Source of the DNA: Colwellia sp.
GTDB lineage: Bacteria > Pseudomonadota > Gammaproteobacteria > Enterobacterales > Alteromonadaceae
DNA length: 64,000 nt
Assembly (NCBI GenBank): GCA_002733765.1
Contig: NVWU01000022.1
Coordinates: 1 to 64,000, forward strand
Direction of reading: 5' to 3'
Below are positions 57,613-63,996 of the stretch, piece after piece. Both the position numbers and the translations under genes were made by a program. How positions within the stretch are numbered: the first letter of the stretch is position 1; each line of letters begins with the position of its first letter. The notes beneath the pieces were generated by a model. The model was not told where the DNA came from and made no database searches. It saw only the letters and a list, made by a program, of their open reading frames with translations.

Positions 57613-58389
57613 TTAATCATTCGCTATAATATCAACAATTCTATCCCTACAAAGCATCACATGTTCAAGCATAAGGTTTTTAGCTCTGTCTGATTCACCT
57701 GCTATTATTGCTTTTAATAATCGTTCATGATGAATTTGTGACTCCCATATATGTGCAGGAATACCATCTAACTTTCTCGATACATTATTATTTTTGTTTA
57801 AAACTTCTGCTTTAAAGCCTTCTCTTAAAATAGGAGAAACTAGAGTAAAAGAAATAACTTTTAACAAATATCTATTTTCTGTGGCGCGTATCAATGCTCG
57901 ATGAAAATTGAAATTCAGATTATACCAAGTTGTTTCAACTTCTTCTGACCAGAAATTTTCTTTTAAAACATCTCTTCCTGCTTTTAGTTGATCCTTTACA
58001 TATTCCTCTATTTCAGGATCTAGACCTCTTTCAGCCAAAATTCGAGCGGCTAAGGCTTCTATACTCGCTCGAACCTCTATTGCATCAAGCGTATCCTGCA
58101 TACCAAATTCCCGAGCAGTGTAGCCGCAATTATGTGAATAATCGACTACGCCCTCTGATTCTAATACCGCTAATGCATTTCTTATAGGCGTTCGAGAAAC
58201 ACCTAACTTATCTGCTAAAGCGGCAGCGCGTAAGCTACTACCAGCTTCAACTTCTTCAGTTAAAATTAAGTCACGTAAGCTCGATAACACAGTTTTTGAT
58301 TGTGATAAGTTTTCATCTTTCAATAACTTTTGCTTTGAACTTTTTAGTAAAGATGATTTTAAAGTTTTTTTTATTTTATTTTGTAGCAT
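57613..58389 (-). CDS. GntR-family regulator with FCD ligand domain
   Basis: The 258 residues begin with a Lys/Ser-rich extension (about 1-30), then a GntR winged-helix (SLRDLILTEEVEAGSSLRAA, ADKLGVSRTPIRNALAVLES, GVVDYSHNCGYTAREF) and an all-helical FCD domain (LDAIEVRASIEALAARILAE, NFNFHRALIRATENRYLLKV, HHERLLKAIIAGESDRAKNL), whose Asp/His positions often bind a metal and a carboxylate ligand. FCD regulators usually repress genes for organic-acid catabolism until the substrate binds. Its place at the end of the AtuA/DUF4387/transporter genes points to these as targets. The ligand is not known. Confidence 0.85.
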   Translation of the reverse strand: MLQNKIKKTLKSSLLKSSKQKLLKDENLSQSKTVLSSLRDLILTEEVEAGSSLRAAALADKLGVSRTPIRNALAVLESEGVVDYSHNCGYTAREFGMQDTLDAIEVRASIEALAARILAERGLDPEIEEYVKDQLKAGRDVLKENFWSEEVETTWYNLNFNFHRALIRATENRYLLKVISFTLVSPILREGFKAEVLNKNNNVSRKLDGIPAHIWESQIHHERLLKAIIAGESDRAKNLMLEHVMLCRDRIVDIIAND

Positions 58390-58476
58390 TCTCTCGACTC
58401 AGCAAGCTAAATTTTATAGCGAAGAACATTTCTAGGTTTATAATAAAGCAATATAAAAGTCGATTAAACCTATTAT

Positions 58477-59784
58477 TTAAACTAATACTTTAAATAAGTA
58501 GCCAGCTAACATTAATACTATTCCTCCACCAATACGTGAAGAAATTTGCGCATAAGGAAATAACTCCATACGTTTTGATGCACCTAATACTTCTAAATCA
58601 CCAGAGCCACCTCGATTTGCCATACATAAACCTGCAGAAATTGCAGCTTCAATGGGGTAACATTTGAAAAGTTTTGCACTTAATCCTGTTCCTAAGGCAG
58701 CGCCAAAAACAATAAAGAATGCGATAGTAATGTTGGTTAAATTAAAAGTATCTATTAGTGTGTTTAAGTCTGTTTTTAAACCGATAGCGACAAGGACTAG
58801 AATTAAGAAAACTTTCATTCCCCATTCACTAAATGCTTGCATAGATTGTTTTATTTCAATGGAAAGTATATCTAAAGCATTGAATGCCATAAAAATAATG
58901 ACTGCCCAAGCAAACAGGTGAATAGCAGGAATAATTGAATACAATAACGCACAAAGTAATAGAATACTGGTAACAAAGAACAATGAGCCTTGGGTATTTA
59001 ATTTTGAATTTTCAATAACTGGTTCATCCCCCAATTCCGGTTCATTTGGTGTATTTAATAGTTTGCCATTGCCAGTTAATGATGGGTATATCTTGCCTAG
59101 TTTATTTAATGATGCTGCAATCAATATAGCAATCATGTTACCAAGCGTTAAAATGGAGATGGCAAAACTATAATAAACGCTCTCATCTTTGCCGGTAACG
59201 TCAGCATAAATTTCAGCCATAGGAATAGCACCAGCACCATTACCGCCTCCCATAATAGGTAAAACATACATGGTAATTATTTCACCTGGTGGAATGCCAA
59301 AAAAGTATCCAGCAGTTACACCAAGTGCCATTGCAAAGGCGATACCTGCGATAATAATGGGTACATATAATACAAGAGATGTAATCAATACCTTACGTGG
59401 TACAGATAGAACACTGGCGCCAACTAATGCAACTAATAAAAGATACAACAGCTTATTATCTATAACGGCTGCTTTTAAAAAGTCAGCTTCTTCGATAGAT
59501 ATAATATTTATATGTACCAAAACAGCAGAGCCAATAAATGCCATTATTAAGCCGCCGCCAACATACTCACGCCAAATAGGTAATTTTTCACCAATAGCGT
59601 AGAAGAAAAATCCTATTGCCCACATAAAAGCAAAAGCACCGATAATGCCCATTGCTTCGAGTTTTCCCATTTTCCAAAAAATAATAATAAGTACAGACAT
59701 TAAGCTATAAAAAAATAAGGGTAATCCATTTACTTCATAACTTATAAATTTTTGGACGGTGTTTTTTATTGAATTAATTGACAT
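58477..59784 (-). CDS. 2-hydroxycarboxylate transporter family (2HCT) symporter
   Basis: The 435-residue membrane protein has about 11 hydrophobic segments and both re-entrant-loop signatures of the 2HCT family, LPIMGGGNGAGAIPM in the first half and ANRGGSGDLEVL in the second. Members such as CitS, CimH and MaeN move citrate, malate or other 2-hydroxy acids with Na+ or H+. This predicts a hydroxy di- or tricarboxylate substrate; Na+ coupling would fit the Na+-NQR. It is the third gene of the AtuA operon (2 bases after DUF4387). Confidence 0.85.
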   Translation of the reverse strand: MSINSIKNTVQKFISYEVNGLPLFFYSLMSVLIIIFWKMGKLEAMGIIGAFAFMWAIGFFFYAIGEKLPIWREYVGGGLIMAFIGSAVLVHINIISIEEADFLKAAVIDNKLLYLLLVALVGASVLSVPRKVLITSLVLYVPIIIAGIAFAMALGVTAGYFFGIPPGEIITMYVLPIMGGGNGAGAIPMAEIYADVTGKDESVYYSFAISILTLGNMIAILIAASLNKLGKIYPSLTGNGKLLNTPNEPELGDEPVIENSKLNTQGSLFFVTSILLLCALLYSIIPAIHLFAWAVIIFMAFNALDILSIEIKQSMQAFSEWGMKVFLILVLVAIGLKTDLNTLIDTFNLTNITIAFFIVFGAALGTGLSAKLFKCYPIEAAISAGLCMANRGGSGDLEVLGASKRMELFPYAQISSRIGGGIVLMLAGYLFKVLV

Positions 59785-59785
59785 A

Positions 59786-60121
59786 TTATCCTTCCATTTC
59801 TAGTGTTAATTTTTGCAATGGCACATGTTGTTGTGCTGAATGCATATCAATTTCACCAAAACTAGCATGAGGTACAGTTCGAGGCATATTAAACTTAATG
59901 GCATTAGCGGCATCAAAATAAATAACATCGAGTATCTTTTCTTTATCTACACAAAATAAATCAGCAAGAATCACTGCATTTATGGCGTTATTTTTTTTAA
60001 TTTCATCATAAATATTTTTATTTTTAAATAAAATATCAAACGTTATTTCGAATGGAGAGGCATTTTTACTACGTATAATGCTTGTTAAATCCATTAAATT
60101 TACACTTTTCAATTGGGTCAT
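59786..60121 (-). CDS. DUF4387 family protein
   Basis: The 111-residue protein is a DUF4387 member, as shown by LTSIIRSKNASPFEITFDIL, the central NNAINAVILADLFCVDKEKI, and DAANAIKFNMPRTVPHASFG before a short tail. DUF4387 genes are typically next to, or fused with, AtuA/DUF1446 genes, so it is likely a small subunit or partner of the preceding protein. No reaction is established. It lies 9 bases after the AtuA-like gene and 1 base before the transporter, so the three are co-transcribed. Confidence 0.8.
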   Translation of the reverse strand: MTQLKSVNLMDLTSIIRSKNASPFEITFDILFKNKNIYDEIKKNNAINAVILADLFCVDKEKILDVIYFDAANAIKFNMPRTVPHASFGEIDMHSAQQHVPLQKLTLEMEG

Positions 60122-60130
60122 TTTATTGCT

Positions 60131-61480
60131 TTATCCAAACTGATGATAATTAATAGGGAAATACTGACAAGGATCATCCACTGTCATTAAATGATAAATA
60201 TTAAACTCATATGTCTCACCTAATGGTATTTCTAATGGGGAAAAAATAAGACCACAATTGCCAGAAGTAGCAATTCGGCCTTTATATGGAGCATGTAATA
60301 ACGCTATTCTCGCCTTAGAGCATACTTGAGTGGCGATGTCTTGAGTTTCAGCTAACACTTCTATAACTACGCATACTTCTTTAGCTACAGTTAAATCTGT
60401 TTCTAATGACCCTAATACGCCATCACGCCCGTAAACATGAAAGAGCAGCTTAAATTTGTCTTTTAAATGTGGAAAGTTTTGTAATGCATAACCCTTTGCC
60501 ATAACTTCAATTTCATCGAGAGCAGAAATAACATTAGGATCACGTACCCCTGCAATAGTGGTTGATCGATAACCAACTAATTTTGCTCCTTCTAGTTTAA
60601 TGGTATAGGGAGTAGGGTTAAATTGACTGCCTGAAACCTTTACTCTTCTTTCATCTATTTGTTCAAATTTACAAGTTGATAAGTCTAAAGTTCCTCCTGG
60701 GCCAGGTAGTAGATATGGATGAGACTTTTCATACATAGTATGTGCGGCAATAGATGTTTCTGTACAAATTGATTGTTCACTTAGAGGTTCTAGTGTGAAA
60801 TGGTCTTGGCTGATTGTTCCCAACATTACTTGACATGAAGGCTGAGCACAGAGTCCTCCACACTCTAAAATTTTCCCCATATGCCAGCTTAATGCCGGAT
60901 CAAAACCTTTATTTATACAAAAAGCGGCAAGTGGGGCAGGATCATAAGCACGACCAGCAATAATAACATCAACGTTATTTTTAATTGCTTCAACAAAAGG
61001 CTCCATTCCCATTTGAGCAACTACAGTTGTTGCATTGTTTATTTCTAATAGCGTTAATGCAGGTACAGATCTACCACAGGCGCTTATTTTTCCATCAATA
61101 AGTTTATCTTTTATTATTTCTTTTGGTATATCCGCATAAATGCTAGCAGAAGAAAGTGAATAACCTTGTTGTTCACATATTTCTTTTACCATTACTTGAA
61201 TTTTATCGACTTGAATATTTGAACCTGCACCACCAGCAGAGCTGATATAAAGTGGAATTTTATGTTCGTGTACAGCTTTGAGTAAAATTAATAATTCAGC
61301 TCTGTAAGATCCTTCAGGGCAAGTCATACTGCCGTTACCAATTTTTATTGGACCACTGTCAACAGAGCCAGAATCTATAATAATTACATCAGGATTACGT
61401 GCTATACCCTTGTTGAAATCTTCAACAGGAAAGCCATAACCCAGCATTCCTGTAGGTGTTAATACTTTTATTTTATTCAT
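60131..61480 (-). CDS. AtuA / DUF1446 family protein
   Basis: The 449 residues belong to the acyclic terpene utilisation AtuA (DUF1446) family. Markers are KVLTPTGMLGYGFPVEDFNK at the start, PDVIIIDSGSVDSGP, YISSAGGAGSNIQVDKI, IIAGRAYDPAPLAAF, HMGKILECGGLCAQPSC, and STTIAGVRDPNVISALDEIE. In pseudomonads AtuA is encoded with citronellol catabolism genes but its reaction is unknown; members with about 580 residues also carry a C-terminal domain that this one lacks. Here it pairs with DUF4387 and a hydroxycarboxylate transporter, and no CoA ligase or carboxylase genes are nearby, so a terpene role is not supported. Organic-acid metabolism is an inference. It is 21 bases downstream of the duplicated terminator. 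Confidence 0.82.
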   Translation of the reverse strand: MNKIKVLTPTGMLGYGFPVEDFNKGIARNPDVIIIDSGSVDSGPIKIGNGSMTCPEGSYRAELLILLKAVHEHKIPLYISSAGGAGSNIQVDKIQVMVKEICEQQGYSLSSASIYADIPKEIIKDKLIDGKISACGRSVPALTLLEINNATTVVAQMGMEPFVEAIKNNVDVIIAGRAYDPAPLAAFCINKGFDPALSWHMGKILECGGLCAQPSCQVMLGTISQDHFTLEPLSEQSICTETSIAAHTMYEKSHPYLLPGPGGTLDLSTCKFEQIDERRVKVSGSQFNPTPYTIKLEGAKLVGYRSTTIAGVRDPNVISALDEIEVMAKGYALQNFPHLKDKFKLLFHVYGRDGVLGSLETDLTVAKEVCVVIEVLAETQDIATQVCSKARIALLHAPYKGRIATSGNCGLIFSPLEIPLGETYEFNIYHLMTVDDPCQYFPINYHQFG

Positions 61481-61504
61481 TTAAATTTTCTTAACGGTAT
61501 ATTG

Positions 61505-61536
61505 AAAAAATCGTATAGGGAAAATCCCCTATACGA
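61505..61536 (-). terminator. Second (downstream) terminator copy
   Basis: On the minus strand TCGTATAGGG pairs with CCCTATACGA (arms 61527-61536 and 61511-61520) around a 6-base loop, followed by six T. It is a standard intrinsic terminator lying 24 bases before the AtuA-type start, so any transcript from the receptor promoter must pass it. Confidence 0.85.
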
Positions 61537-61578
61537 GGTGCATTACTTTTAACTATGCGAAAGTTTAAAACCTCCTTG

Positions 61579-61610
61579 AAAAAATCGTATAGGGAAAATC
61601 CCCTATACGA
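61579..61610 (-). terminator. First terminator copy, after the TonB receptor gene
   Basis: Same stem and six-T tail as the other copy (arms 61601-61610 and 61585-61594), starting 28 bases after the receptor stop. Confidence 0.88.
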
Positions 61611-61638
61611 GGTGCATTACTTTTAACTATGCGAAAGT

Positions 61639-63996
61639 TTAAAACCTCCAATTGGCTGTAACGCCAATAGTGCGTGGTTGTCCAAAGGTAACGTGAGAGC
61701 TATTACCAAATTTTACATAGTGAGTTTCAAACTCTTCATCAGTAATGTTTTTAGCCCAAATAGAAAGTTGCCAATTATCTAGTTCATATAAAATACGAGC
61801 ATCTAATAGGCCATAAGCTTTAATGATTTCAGGAGATTCATTAGAATTATCTTCAAAGCGATCATCATTCCATGCGTAATCACTTTCTAAAGAAAGTAAA
61901 CCATTGTTATTGAATGGGTTTTCAATGTCATAGGCAATATTTAGCACAAAAGAATGTTCAGGTGTACGGCTTAATCTATTGCCGCTATAGTCATTTTCAC
62001 CATCTATAAAGTCAGTAAAAATAGCATCTAAATAGGTATATTTTAGACCAAGTGATAACTCATCAATAGGTAAAACCATTACCTCAAGCTCTAATCCTTT
62101 TATTTCAGCTTCACCTGCATTTTTAGTAAAAACTACTGTACCTTCAACTTGTCTTACTTGTAAGTCTTCTTGGATCATAAAAAAAATAGAGGAATTTAGT
62201 CTCATACTACCATCGAGTAATTCAGATTTAAGACCTAGTTCAAAATTTATAATATGCTCAGGATCAAAACTTTCTACAGCTTCTTCTGCAGTTAACGCAC
62301 CATCTTGAAAACCACCAGCTTTATATCCTGTTGATACAGTAGCGTAACCAAACAAATCAGGCTCAAATTGAGCGTCTAAGGTTAACTTCCATGTAAATGC
62401 ATCCCAATCATCAATTGCATTAACTTGCTCATAGCCATTTGGGGTTCCTTTTGCGGCTAACTGTAAGCCCATGAAAGAATCTAATGAATCTACAGAAAAG
62501 TCTTTTTCATCAACGCTATATCTACCACCAGCGGTTAAGGTATAAATATCTGATAATGGATAACTTAATTCGCCAAAAATAGCATAACTTTCATTAATCG
62601 CAATTTGATGGAATGACTGTTTTGCTGCAGGAGTTGCTAAGGTATCGGAACTGTCACAACCTGAAGCTACGCCCGCACCATAAGCGGCGGCATATGCTGC
62701 AGGAAAACCAAAGCCTTGCGCTATCAATGCTGGTAATCCGGCGGCATATGCACCTGATGGAATTGCTCCAACTGAAGTCAAAATGCCATCGACTGCACAT
62801 AAGCCACTAAACAAACCTGTTACAGCATTTTGGTTTATATCTGATTTTTCATAGTAACCACCAACTTGCCAGAAGAGATCATTTTCTGAATTACCTGAAA
62901 TACGAATTTCTAAAGAGTTAGTTTCAGTTTCTTCATCTCCGCCACGTTGTAGTTGGAGAGGGTCACCAACACTATTGCCCGACATGGCAAAATCTAATAA
63001 ATTTGTACCATCAAAGTCTTCATTAAAAACGTAATCTAATTCTTTGTGATTGGCAGTAATATTTATATCTACTAATTCCGTAGACCATTTTGCTGTTGCA
63101 GTGACGCTAAATATGTCTCGCTTTTCAAAACCATCAATTTCACCTGATGTGATACGATTGTCATTATCAGGATCGGTTGATAAGCCCGTAATGTCACTAT
63201 CATATAAGTTTCTTGCTGAACCTCCGTTATCTTCATTAACAACATTAAAAGATAATCCTAGGTCTAAATCATCGGTTGCTTTAAGTAAAAAATGAGCGCG
63301 GCCGGATAACCGGTCTTCAGACATTAATTGATTACTGGTATTGATATTCTCAGCAAAGCCATCATTTTGACTAGCGCTGATAACAAAACGAGAAAATAGC
63401 TTATCTTCAATTAAGGGTATATTTACCATGCCATTGGTATTTAAAATACCATCACTACCTACAGTTGCTTGTAATTTTGCATCAAAATACCTATCAGCCT
63501 TATTAGTAATAACATGTATTAAGCCGCCAACAACATTCTTTCCCCAAAGTGTTCCTTGTGGTCCTTTTAAAATTTCGATGCGTTGTAGGTCAAAGTAATC
63601 GAAAGAAAGAAAAGCAGGGCGAGACATGTATATATTATCAACATACACAGCGGTTGACTGATCGCCACCTGCACCAGTATCTGCCGAACCAACTCCTCGG
63701 ATAAATGGGCGTGGTTGAGAACTAGGAAAAGCATCTAATGATAATCCTGGAGTCAGATTTGCAATGTTTTGAACACTTTCAATTCTACTTTTCTCTATCT
63801 GGTCACCTGAAAGCACATCTATAGTTAGTGGAGTACTTTGTGAATATTGCTCACGTTTTTGTGCTGTTACTACTATTTTCTCTATAGCTGTAGCACTCTT
63901 TTTGTCTTCTATAACTTCTTCAGCTAAAGCCGGTTGTACTACTAATGCAATGGCTATTGATAACGCTGATAAGTTGAATTTATTATATTTTTCCAT
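61639..63996 (-). CDS. TonB-dependent outer-membrane receptor
   Basis: The 785 residues start with a signal peptide (SALSIAIALVVQPALA, cleavage after about 25), a TonB box (EKIVVTAQKREQ), a plug domain (SVQNIANLTPGLSLDAFPSS, RPFIRGVGSADTGAGGDQST, RIEILKGPQGTLWGKNVVGG) and a 22-strand barrel ending in Phe (GVTANWRF). It imports a scarce or large solute with energy from TonB; the plug type is common among receptors for non-siderophore substrates in Alteromonadales. An Ala/Gly-rich insert around residues 398-450 is bounded by Cys400 and Cys447, probably an extracellular loop with a disulfide. It lies directly upstream of the AtuA operon, but two terminators intervene. The gene is complete; its promoter is outside the window. 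Confidence 0.9.
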   Translation of the reverse strand: MEKYNKFNLSALSIAIALVVQPALAEEVIEDKKSATAIEKIVVTAQKREQYSQSTPLTIDVLSGDQIEKSRIESVQNIANLTPGLSLDAFPSSQPRPFIRGVGSADTGAGGDQSTAVYVDNIYMSRPAFLSFDYFDLQRIEILKGPQGTLWGKNVVGGLIHVITNKADRYFDAKLQATVGSDGILNTNGMVNIPLIEDKLFSRFVISASQNDGFAENINTSNQLMSEDRLSGRAHFLLKATDDLDLGLSFNVVNEDNGGSARNLYDSDITGLSTDPDNDNRITSGEIDGFEKRDIFSVTATAKWSTELVDINITANHKELDYVFNEDFDGTNLLDFAMSGNSVGDPLQLQRGGDEETETNSLEIRISGNSENDLFWQVGGYYEKSDINQNAVTGLFSGLCAVDGILTSVGAIPSGAYAAGLPALIAQGFGFPAAYAAAYGAGVASGCDSSDTLATPAAKQSFHQIAINESYAIFGELSYPLSDIYTLTAGGRYSVDEKDFSVDSLDSFMGLQLAAKGTPNGYEQVNAIDDWDAFTWKLTLDAQFEPDLFGYATVSTGYKAGGFQDGALTAEEAVESFDPEHIINFELGLKSELLDGSMRLNSSIFFMIQEDLQVRQVEGTVVFTKNAGEAEIKGLELEVMVLPIDELSLGLKYTYLDAIFTDFIDGENDYSGNRLSRTPEHSFVLNIAYDIENPFNNNGLLSLESDYAWNDDRFEDNSNESPEIIKAYGLLDARILYELDNWQLSIWAKNITDEEFETHYVKFGNSSHVTFGQPRTIGVTANWRF

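Follow-up and report, generated by a model that had tools for sequence, protein, structure and literature searches.

A candidate hydroxy-acid uptake and cleavage module around a citramalate-lyase-like AtuA-DUF4387 pair in Colwellia

What compound is taken up and broken down by the five minus-strand genes that close the first 64,000 nucleotides of a Colwellia sp. contig (NVWU01000022.1, here C41; these 64,000 nucleotides are referred to as the window)? The genes encode a TonB-dependent receptor, an AtuA/DUF1446 protein, a DUF4387 protein, a 2HCT symporter and a regulator with an FCD domain, and they face a divergent operon of five plus-strand genes that lies past the window edge. An initial annotation had taken the five genes for an uptake-and-catabolism cluster acting on a hydroxy acid, and this is still the likeliest reading. 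Our best explanation, to which we assign a probability of roughly 0.58, is that the genes belong to a movable, FCD-regulated module that would import a 2-hydroxy-dicarboxylate (citramalate or a near relative), with the AtuA-DUF4387 pair acting as a CmlAB-type lyase that would cleave it to pyruvate and acetate. The gene content, the homology of the pair to PDB entries 9ERQ and 9EVF, a conserved block and a repeated palindrome, on which this explanation draws, are all read directly from the DNA.

The AtuA-DUF4387 pair is homologous to a named citramalate lyase

The AtuA/DUF1446 protein (60131..61480, minus strand; 449 amino acids; PF07287, E 1.9e-23) matches chain A of 9ERQ/9EVF, with an E value of 2.3e-112 for 9ERQ_A. 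This chain is named 'Acyclic terpene utilization AtuA family protein | Citramalate lyase, subunit A (cmlA)'. The DUF4387 protein (59786..60121, minus strand; 111 amino acids; PF14330, E 3.3e-33) matches chain B (E 2e-21 for 9ERQ_B), which is named 'DUF4387 domain-containing protein | Citramalate lyase, subunit B (cmlB)'. A structure model of the AtuA protein was built on 35 sequences (mean predicted local distance difference test score, pLDDT, 89.6), and its single PDB match at E <= 0.001 was 9EVF_A (E 3.1e-57, template modeling score [TM] 0.94, root mean square deviation 2.3, 42% identity). The title of that entry is 'Citramalate lyase - ADP - pyruvate complex'. The activity of AtuA/DUF4387 had been described as unknown, but the PDB depositors call the pair citramalate lyase. 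No published account of the pair's activity was found in the literature searched, most subscription journals being outside its coverage. Both subunits are homologous to the window proteins and the fold of subunit A is the same, and the reaction of the window pair is likely to be a cleavage of the citramalate lyase (CmlAB) type.

One scan of a contig collection with the window AtuA protein yielded 43 relatives, some of them in loci cut by contig ends. CmlB was present in all 43 loci and adjacent to CmlA in 41. The earlier proposal that the two proteins act as one complex is upheld, because the subunits stand together in 9ERQ and 9EVF and because of this adjacency.

Methylaspartate operons and plasmids carry the same pair

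Matches to glmS, mutL, glmE and the methylaspartate ammonia-lyase (MAL) gene precede the pair in 14 of the 43 loci, and a class I fumarase alpha (mesaconase-type) match occurs in 13; both counts favor a citramalate-related role. In the description of the methylaspartate pathway in PMC4682846, mal has a DUF1446 gene as its neighbor, and what becomes of (S)-citramalate in Escherichia coli is stated to be unclear. A citramalate lyase would fit the place of DUF1446 in the E. coli pathway. The methylaspartate operon (glmS-mutL-glmE-mal-DUF1446-DUF4387, with mesaconase) and the window have the gene pair in common, whereas the window block has TonB receptor, 2HCT, TarD-like, KPR-like and PrpD genes (described below), and glutamate mutase (glmS, glmE), MAL/ammonia-lyase and class I fumarase/mesaconase genes are absent from the ten genes of the module.

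A relative is also found in 55 plasmid records, four of which were examined. In an E. coli plasmid record, the genes for methylaspartate mutase, ammonia-lyase, DUF1446, DUF4387, a symporter and fumarase are consecutive, and on Klebsiella and Neorhizobium plasmids the pair stands with dehydrogenases and fumarate hydratase. The Klebsiella operon (plasmid pHNLC3, AtuA-DUF4387-dehydrogenases-fumarate hydratase) places the same pair beside enzymes of the C5/C4-acid type; in contrast to the window, it has fumarate hydratase and dehydrogenase genes, and no 2HCT or receptor gene lies in its annotated stretch. This plasmid is typed as conjugative and carries insertion sequence elements and a resistance gene.

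Some further arrangements were seen among the relatives. In two betaproteobacterial metagenome-assembled genomes (MAGs; loci L047 and L065), CmlA and CmlB are separated by glutamate-mutase-like S and E genes, and methylaspartate ammonia-lyase was undetected; these loci perhaps represent a different mutase-lyase pathway. A conserved protein of ~300 to 320 amino acids is encoded directly after cmlB in methylaspartate-type operons (e.g., L026:11675-12580 and L042:11704-12648) and has matches in 16 of the 43 loci; none of four such proteins scanned had a Pfam match above the cut-off, and it is possibly an accessory protein. At L018:8251-9936 (genome G613), an AtuA gene broken into two pieces adjoins a DUF4387 gene that looks intact; this may be a decaying copy.

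The pair stands in a ten-gene, two-operon block

The five minus-strand genes, their families and the spacings of the middle three given in the initial annotation all hold on inspection of open reading frames (ORFs) and Pfam matches: the AtuA and DUF4387 genes are separated by 9 bases and the DUF4387 and 2HCT genes by 1 base. The gap from the 2HCT gene to the regulator is 87 bases and that from the receptor to the AtuA gene is 158 bases, and the receptor start codon lies only 4 bases inside the window edge. The statement that no dehydrogenase is present is true only inside the window, because the edge cuts the locus. The window corresponds to C41:1-64000 of a 4.05-Mb genome and the contig runs on to 70902, with one reductase-family and two dehydratase-family genes just past the edge. 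The divergent operon comprises, all on the plus strand and beyond the window, an enolase-superfamily, D-tartrate-dehydratase-like (TarD-like) gene at C41:64394-65572, a ketopantoate-reductase-family (KPR-like) gene, an MmgE/PrpD gene (the sole MmgE/PrpD match found in this genome), a second 2HCT carrier gene and an AEC-type (Mem_trans) transporter gene.

Over its full length, the TarD-like protein aligns with 4KEM (E 1.3e-195) and 2DW7 (E 2.5e-178), and it keeps the KMK, DAN, YEE, GEN and PHGGH segments, which have roles in D-tartrate dehydratase; by sequence, it is a putative D-tartrate dehydratase. The Bradyrhizobium protein of 2DW6/2DW7 (Bll6730) is a D-tartrate dehydratase; the TarD-like gene here differs from it in sharing its operon with KPR-like, PrpD and 2HCT genes and in facing cmlAB.

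The block has its closest relative in Colwellia MAG DT_18, at locus L025, which aligns with C41 57594-70499 in pieces of 83.5 to 85% DNA identity. The ten genes recur there as one block, which favors their belonging together, and a receptor 85% identical to that of the window occupies the same place. The AEC gene of L025 reads as two ORFs, through either a real break or an assembly error. The L025 flanks (1,047 and 1,153 bases) are without a match to the window or to locus L003, although the window has mutS starting ~300 bases outside the block. Since the block aligns while the flanks are unmatched, we infer a unit found at different sites, and the ten-gene, two-operon module is apparently movable. 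Its components are rare: among the genomes searched, DUF4387 was found in 2 of 295 of the family and 8 of 369 of the class (own genome counted in both), and a TarD-like gene in 1 of 295 family genomes (the own genome) and 37 of 398 genomes of the phylum (own genome included).

The Pfam name AtuA would suit a terpene (citronellol/geraniol) catabolic cluster. Citronellol (Atu) catabolism employs geranyl-CoA carboxylase, coenzyme A (CoA) ligase and acyl-CoA dehydrogenase, and the carboxylase, CoA ligase and acyl-CoA dehydrogenase families are all missing from the ten genes; moreover, the 9ERQ/9EVF match is far more specific. We therefore reject terpene catabolism as highly improbable, and the earlier view that the cluster differs from citronellol catabolism stands. 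Subunit families of the classical citramalate/citrate lyase (CitDEF) type are likewise absent from the ten genes.

The two arms could also be uptake routes that are unrelated and only happen to adjoin, with a citramalate operon on the minus strand, a tartrate operon on the plus strand and nothing but the regulator in common. Each strand has its own 2HCT carrier, and elsewhere the enzymes live apart: a TarD match is near CmlAB in 1 of the 43 loci, leaving 42 with CmlAB and no TarD, and all 20 TarD loci, drawn from 20 of the 36 other genomes in which TarD is matched strongly, lack CmlAB nearby, which led us to discard TarD-CmlAB as a general pair. A PrpD-like match is near TarD in 2 of these 20 loci. 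The arms nevertheless stand together as a block both in the window genome and in Colwellia MAG DT_18, and palindromes occupy the intergenic region common to both; we consider two separate routes quite unlikely.

Conversely, the ten genes might constitute a single undescribed route for methyl-branched tartrate or beta-methylmalate. PrpD enzymes carry out a dehydration, as used on 2-methylcitrate. After uptake by the TonB receptor and the two 2HCT carriers, the TarD-like enzyme would turn 2-methyltartrate into 3-methyl-oxaloacetate, the KPR-like enzyme would give 3-methylmalate, the PrpD-like enzyme would give mesaconate/citraconate, hydration would yield citramalate, and CmlAB would release pyruvate and acetate. 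The argument for this scheme is purely chemical, and we hold it to be unlikely. The hydration of mesaconate might itself fall to PrpD; in PMC12290011, an MmgE/PrpD protein is reported to be a methylsuccinate isomerase, with activity on citramalate isomers or mesaconate undetected.

A CitS-like carrier and varied TonB receptors accompany the pair

The 2HCT symporter (58477..59784, minus strand; 435 amino acids) matches PF03390 at E 4.3e-118 (395 bits against a cut-off of 26.2) and CitS (5A1S) at E 6.1e-92. Five CitS residues, Asn186, Tyr348, Arg402, Ser405 and Arg428, are citrate coordinating according to the available text of PMC4718727. The window protein is of the same family as the CitS-type symporters and keeps four of these five side chains, those aligned to Asn186, Arg402, Ser405 and Arg428 in the printed alignment, which is in favor of the proposed module. 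Its score of 411.6 bits is below the NCBIfam CitS equivalog cut-off of 600, and citrate itself is for this reason not implied as the substrate.

The TonB-dependent receptor (61639..63996, minus strand; 785 amino acids) has both Plug and barrel (PF07715, E 2.3e-17; PF00593, E 5.9e-41) and would serve in outer membrane uptake. In locus L017, which comes from a different genus within the family, genes for a TonB receptor, 2HCT, CmlA, CmlB and a LysR protein are consecutive, an arrangement which supports the proposed module; in L020, from the same class, TonB receptor, CmlA, CmlB, PrpD and LysR genes are flanked by two TRAP transporter sets. A PrpD subgroup common to the window and L020 was rejected, the proteins being ~25% identical. 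The suggested grouping of receptor, 2HCT and pair thus recurs outside the genus, but with an L017 receptor unrelated to that of the window. The search for receptors elsewhere used the window receptor as the query and misses unrelated ones such as that of L017, which was found by Pfam. A TonB receptor is a repeated neighbor of the pair in three lineages of the class, and it is not one and the same receptor.

The wide association with 2HCT and FCD genes that the initial annotation led one to expect is not seen. 2HCT is near the pair in 1 of the 43 loci (L025) and in 1 of 8 other-genome loci (L017); a match to the window GntR/FCD protein is found in 4 of the 43, and an FCD-type match in 1 of the 8 (L024).

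Transcription and regulation of the two operons

Two identical tandem 74-bp copies of an element with a terminator-like hairpin lie between the receptor gene and cmlA (61502..61649, minus strand). Each copy has an 11-pair stem followed by TTTTTT, and the first bases overlap the end of the receptor gene; L025 has only one copy, compared with two in the window. These elements are candidate intrinsic terminators that may split the receptor from the cmlAB transcript. Given the duplicated element between the receptor and AtuA genes, the receptor and cmlAB may not share one full transcript, and cotranscription of all five genes is doubtful.

The GntR-family regulator with an FCD ligand domain (57613..58389, minus strand; 258 amino acids; PF00392 and PF07729) is a candidate regulator of both divergent operons, predicted to bind palindromes between them. 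The palindrome ATTGAATTCAAT has two copies in the divergent intergenic region. The pattern ATTGnATnCAAT is repeated between the two operons in both the window genome and L025, in keeping with a regulated module. Its genome-wide count is 7, compared with 5 for the reversed pattern; of the 7 sites, 3 lie in C41:64059-64286, just past the window, and one is inside the window 2HCT gene. With one mismatch allowed, L003 has 4 sites in its 9.9 kb, for which 1.1 would be expected, and all 4 fall in the intergenic region; a count of 4 was reached in 7 of 200 shuffles. L025 has 5 sites in 15 kb, for which 1.9 would be expected, and 4 of them fall in the counterpart region; a count of 5 was reached in 10 of 200 shuffles. 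This clustering is no unbiased test, because the pattern was chosen after it had been sighted in that region.

Residue conservation and the substrate of CmlAB

As a reference for the substrate, we took the 142 columns that do not vary among 9ERQ and 14 methylaspartate-operon rows, although these core rows are mostly close relatives of one another. The number of these residues kept is 98 in the window CmlA, 96 in L025, 106 in L017, 81 in L020 and 71 in a second AtuA copy of the own genome, on contig C16. Rows that are deltaproteobacterial by record title (L032, L033, L034, L037 and L048) keep 130 to 135, alphaproteobacterial rows (L052, L054 and L058-L061) keep 105, and Tct-linked betaproteobacterial rows (L045, L049, L051, L053, L056, L057, L066 and L067) keep 92 to 95; the values for L047 and L065 are 96 and 94. 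In a quick tree of 53 rows, which carries a long-branch warning, the window CmlA and L025 form their own long branch within a 47-row group that includes the methylaspartate rows and 9ERQ, and the C16 copy falls in a separate 6-row group. The C16 pair (L004:2542-8598) has its own FCD regulator, an oxidoreductase dependent on flavin adenine dinucleotide and a thiamine-diphosphate enzyme, and probably acts on a substrate different from that of the window pair.

A number of observations weigh against the citramalate-type module. The window CmlA, at 98 of 142, is close to the Tct-linked rows and below the L017, alphaproteobacterial and deltaproteobacterial rows; its changed positions include R61-D62, which are otherwise almost invariant, as well as H90 and the 215-217 loop, and its long branch falls outside the methylaspartate clade. 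Compared with 9ERQ/9EVF, it is ~42% identical, has 44 of the 142 core-invariant positions changed and has no methylaspartate genes alongside; a class I fumarase able to make citramalate is absent from the ten genes. The citramalate lyase assignment of 9ERQ/9EVF itself is taken from PDB names and titles alone. Tyr348 of CitS is replaced by Lys in the window 2HCT protein. BLAST gives no match of >50 bits between the receptors of L017 and the window, and the L020 receptor is 29% identical to that of the window. TctC-type matches are found in 12 of the 43 loci, and in a Variovorax plasmid record the pair is accompanied by TctC and an RraA-family gene and not by fumarase, because of which substrates probably vary. 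Since conservation in the window CmlA is no better than in subfamilies with other transporters, its exact substrate is less sure than its reaction type.

A rival idea is that the enzyme is a carbon-carbon lyase of the CmlAB type with a substrate other than citramalate, namely, a tartrate-, malate- or citrate-type acid, the 2HCT and TarD-like proteins showing the substrate class. The substitutions at family-conserved positions of CmlA, the strong matches of the divergent TarD-like gene to 4KEM and 2DW7, the CitS-like carriers in the module and the other transporters beside the pair's other subfamilies would all suit such an acid. The absence of CmlAB near TarD relatives in the 20 loci indicates that a tartrate-type enzyme is no general partner, and citramalate lyase is the one relative of the pair that has both a solved structure and a name. 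We regard a different acid as possible but less likely, and we favor citramalate or a near relative.

Proposed route and implications

For the preferred citramalate-type module, we infer the substrate, the direction, the role of the receptor, the roles of the divergent enzymes and the regulation as follows. The most likely substrate, citramalate or a similar small 2-hydroxy-dicarboxylate, would cross the outer membrane via the TonB receptor, possibly in the form of a chelate or an ester, and the 2HCT symporter would move the acid over the inner membrane. The AtuA-DUF4387 complex would split it to pyruvate plus either acetate or an activated form of acetate, possibly with the involvement of an adenine nucleotide, as ADP and pyruvate are named in the 9EVF title. 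The divergent operon (TarD-like, KPR-like, MmgE/PrpD, second 2HCT and AEC) would feed related C4/C5 hydroxy-acids into the same route, and the FCD protein would sense the acid and act at the repeated ATTGnATnCAAT palindromes between the operons.

The enzyme pair has already been named; its gene setting here, a two-operon hydroxy-acid module with CmlAB as the probable cleaving enzyme, is undescribed in the literature searched and looks new. The AtuA/DUF1446 and DUF4387 families, listed as of unknown function, would gain a testable lyase activity outside the methylaspartate pathway, and the pair would be a candidate for the citramalate-cleaving step left open in the available text of PMC4682846. 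The analysis defines a compact, apparently movable module whose substrate should be findable by growth tests.

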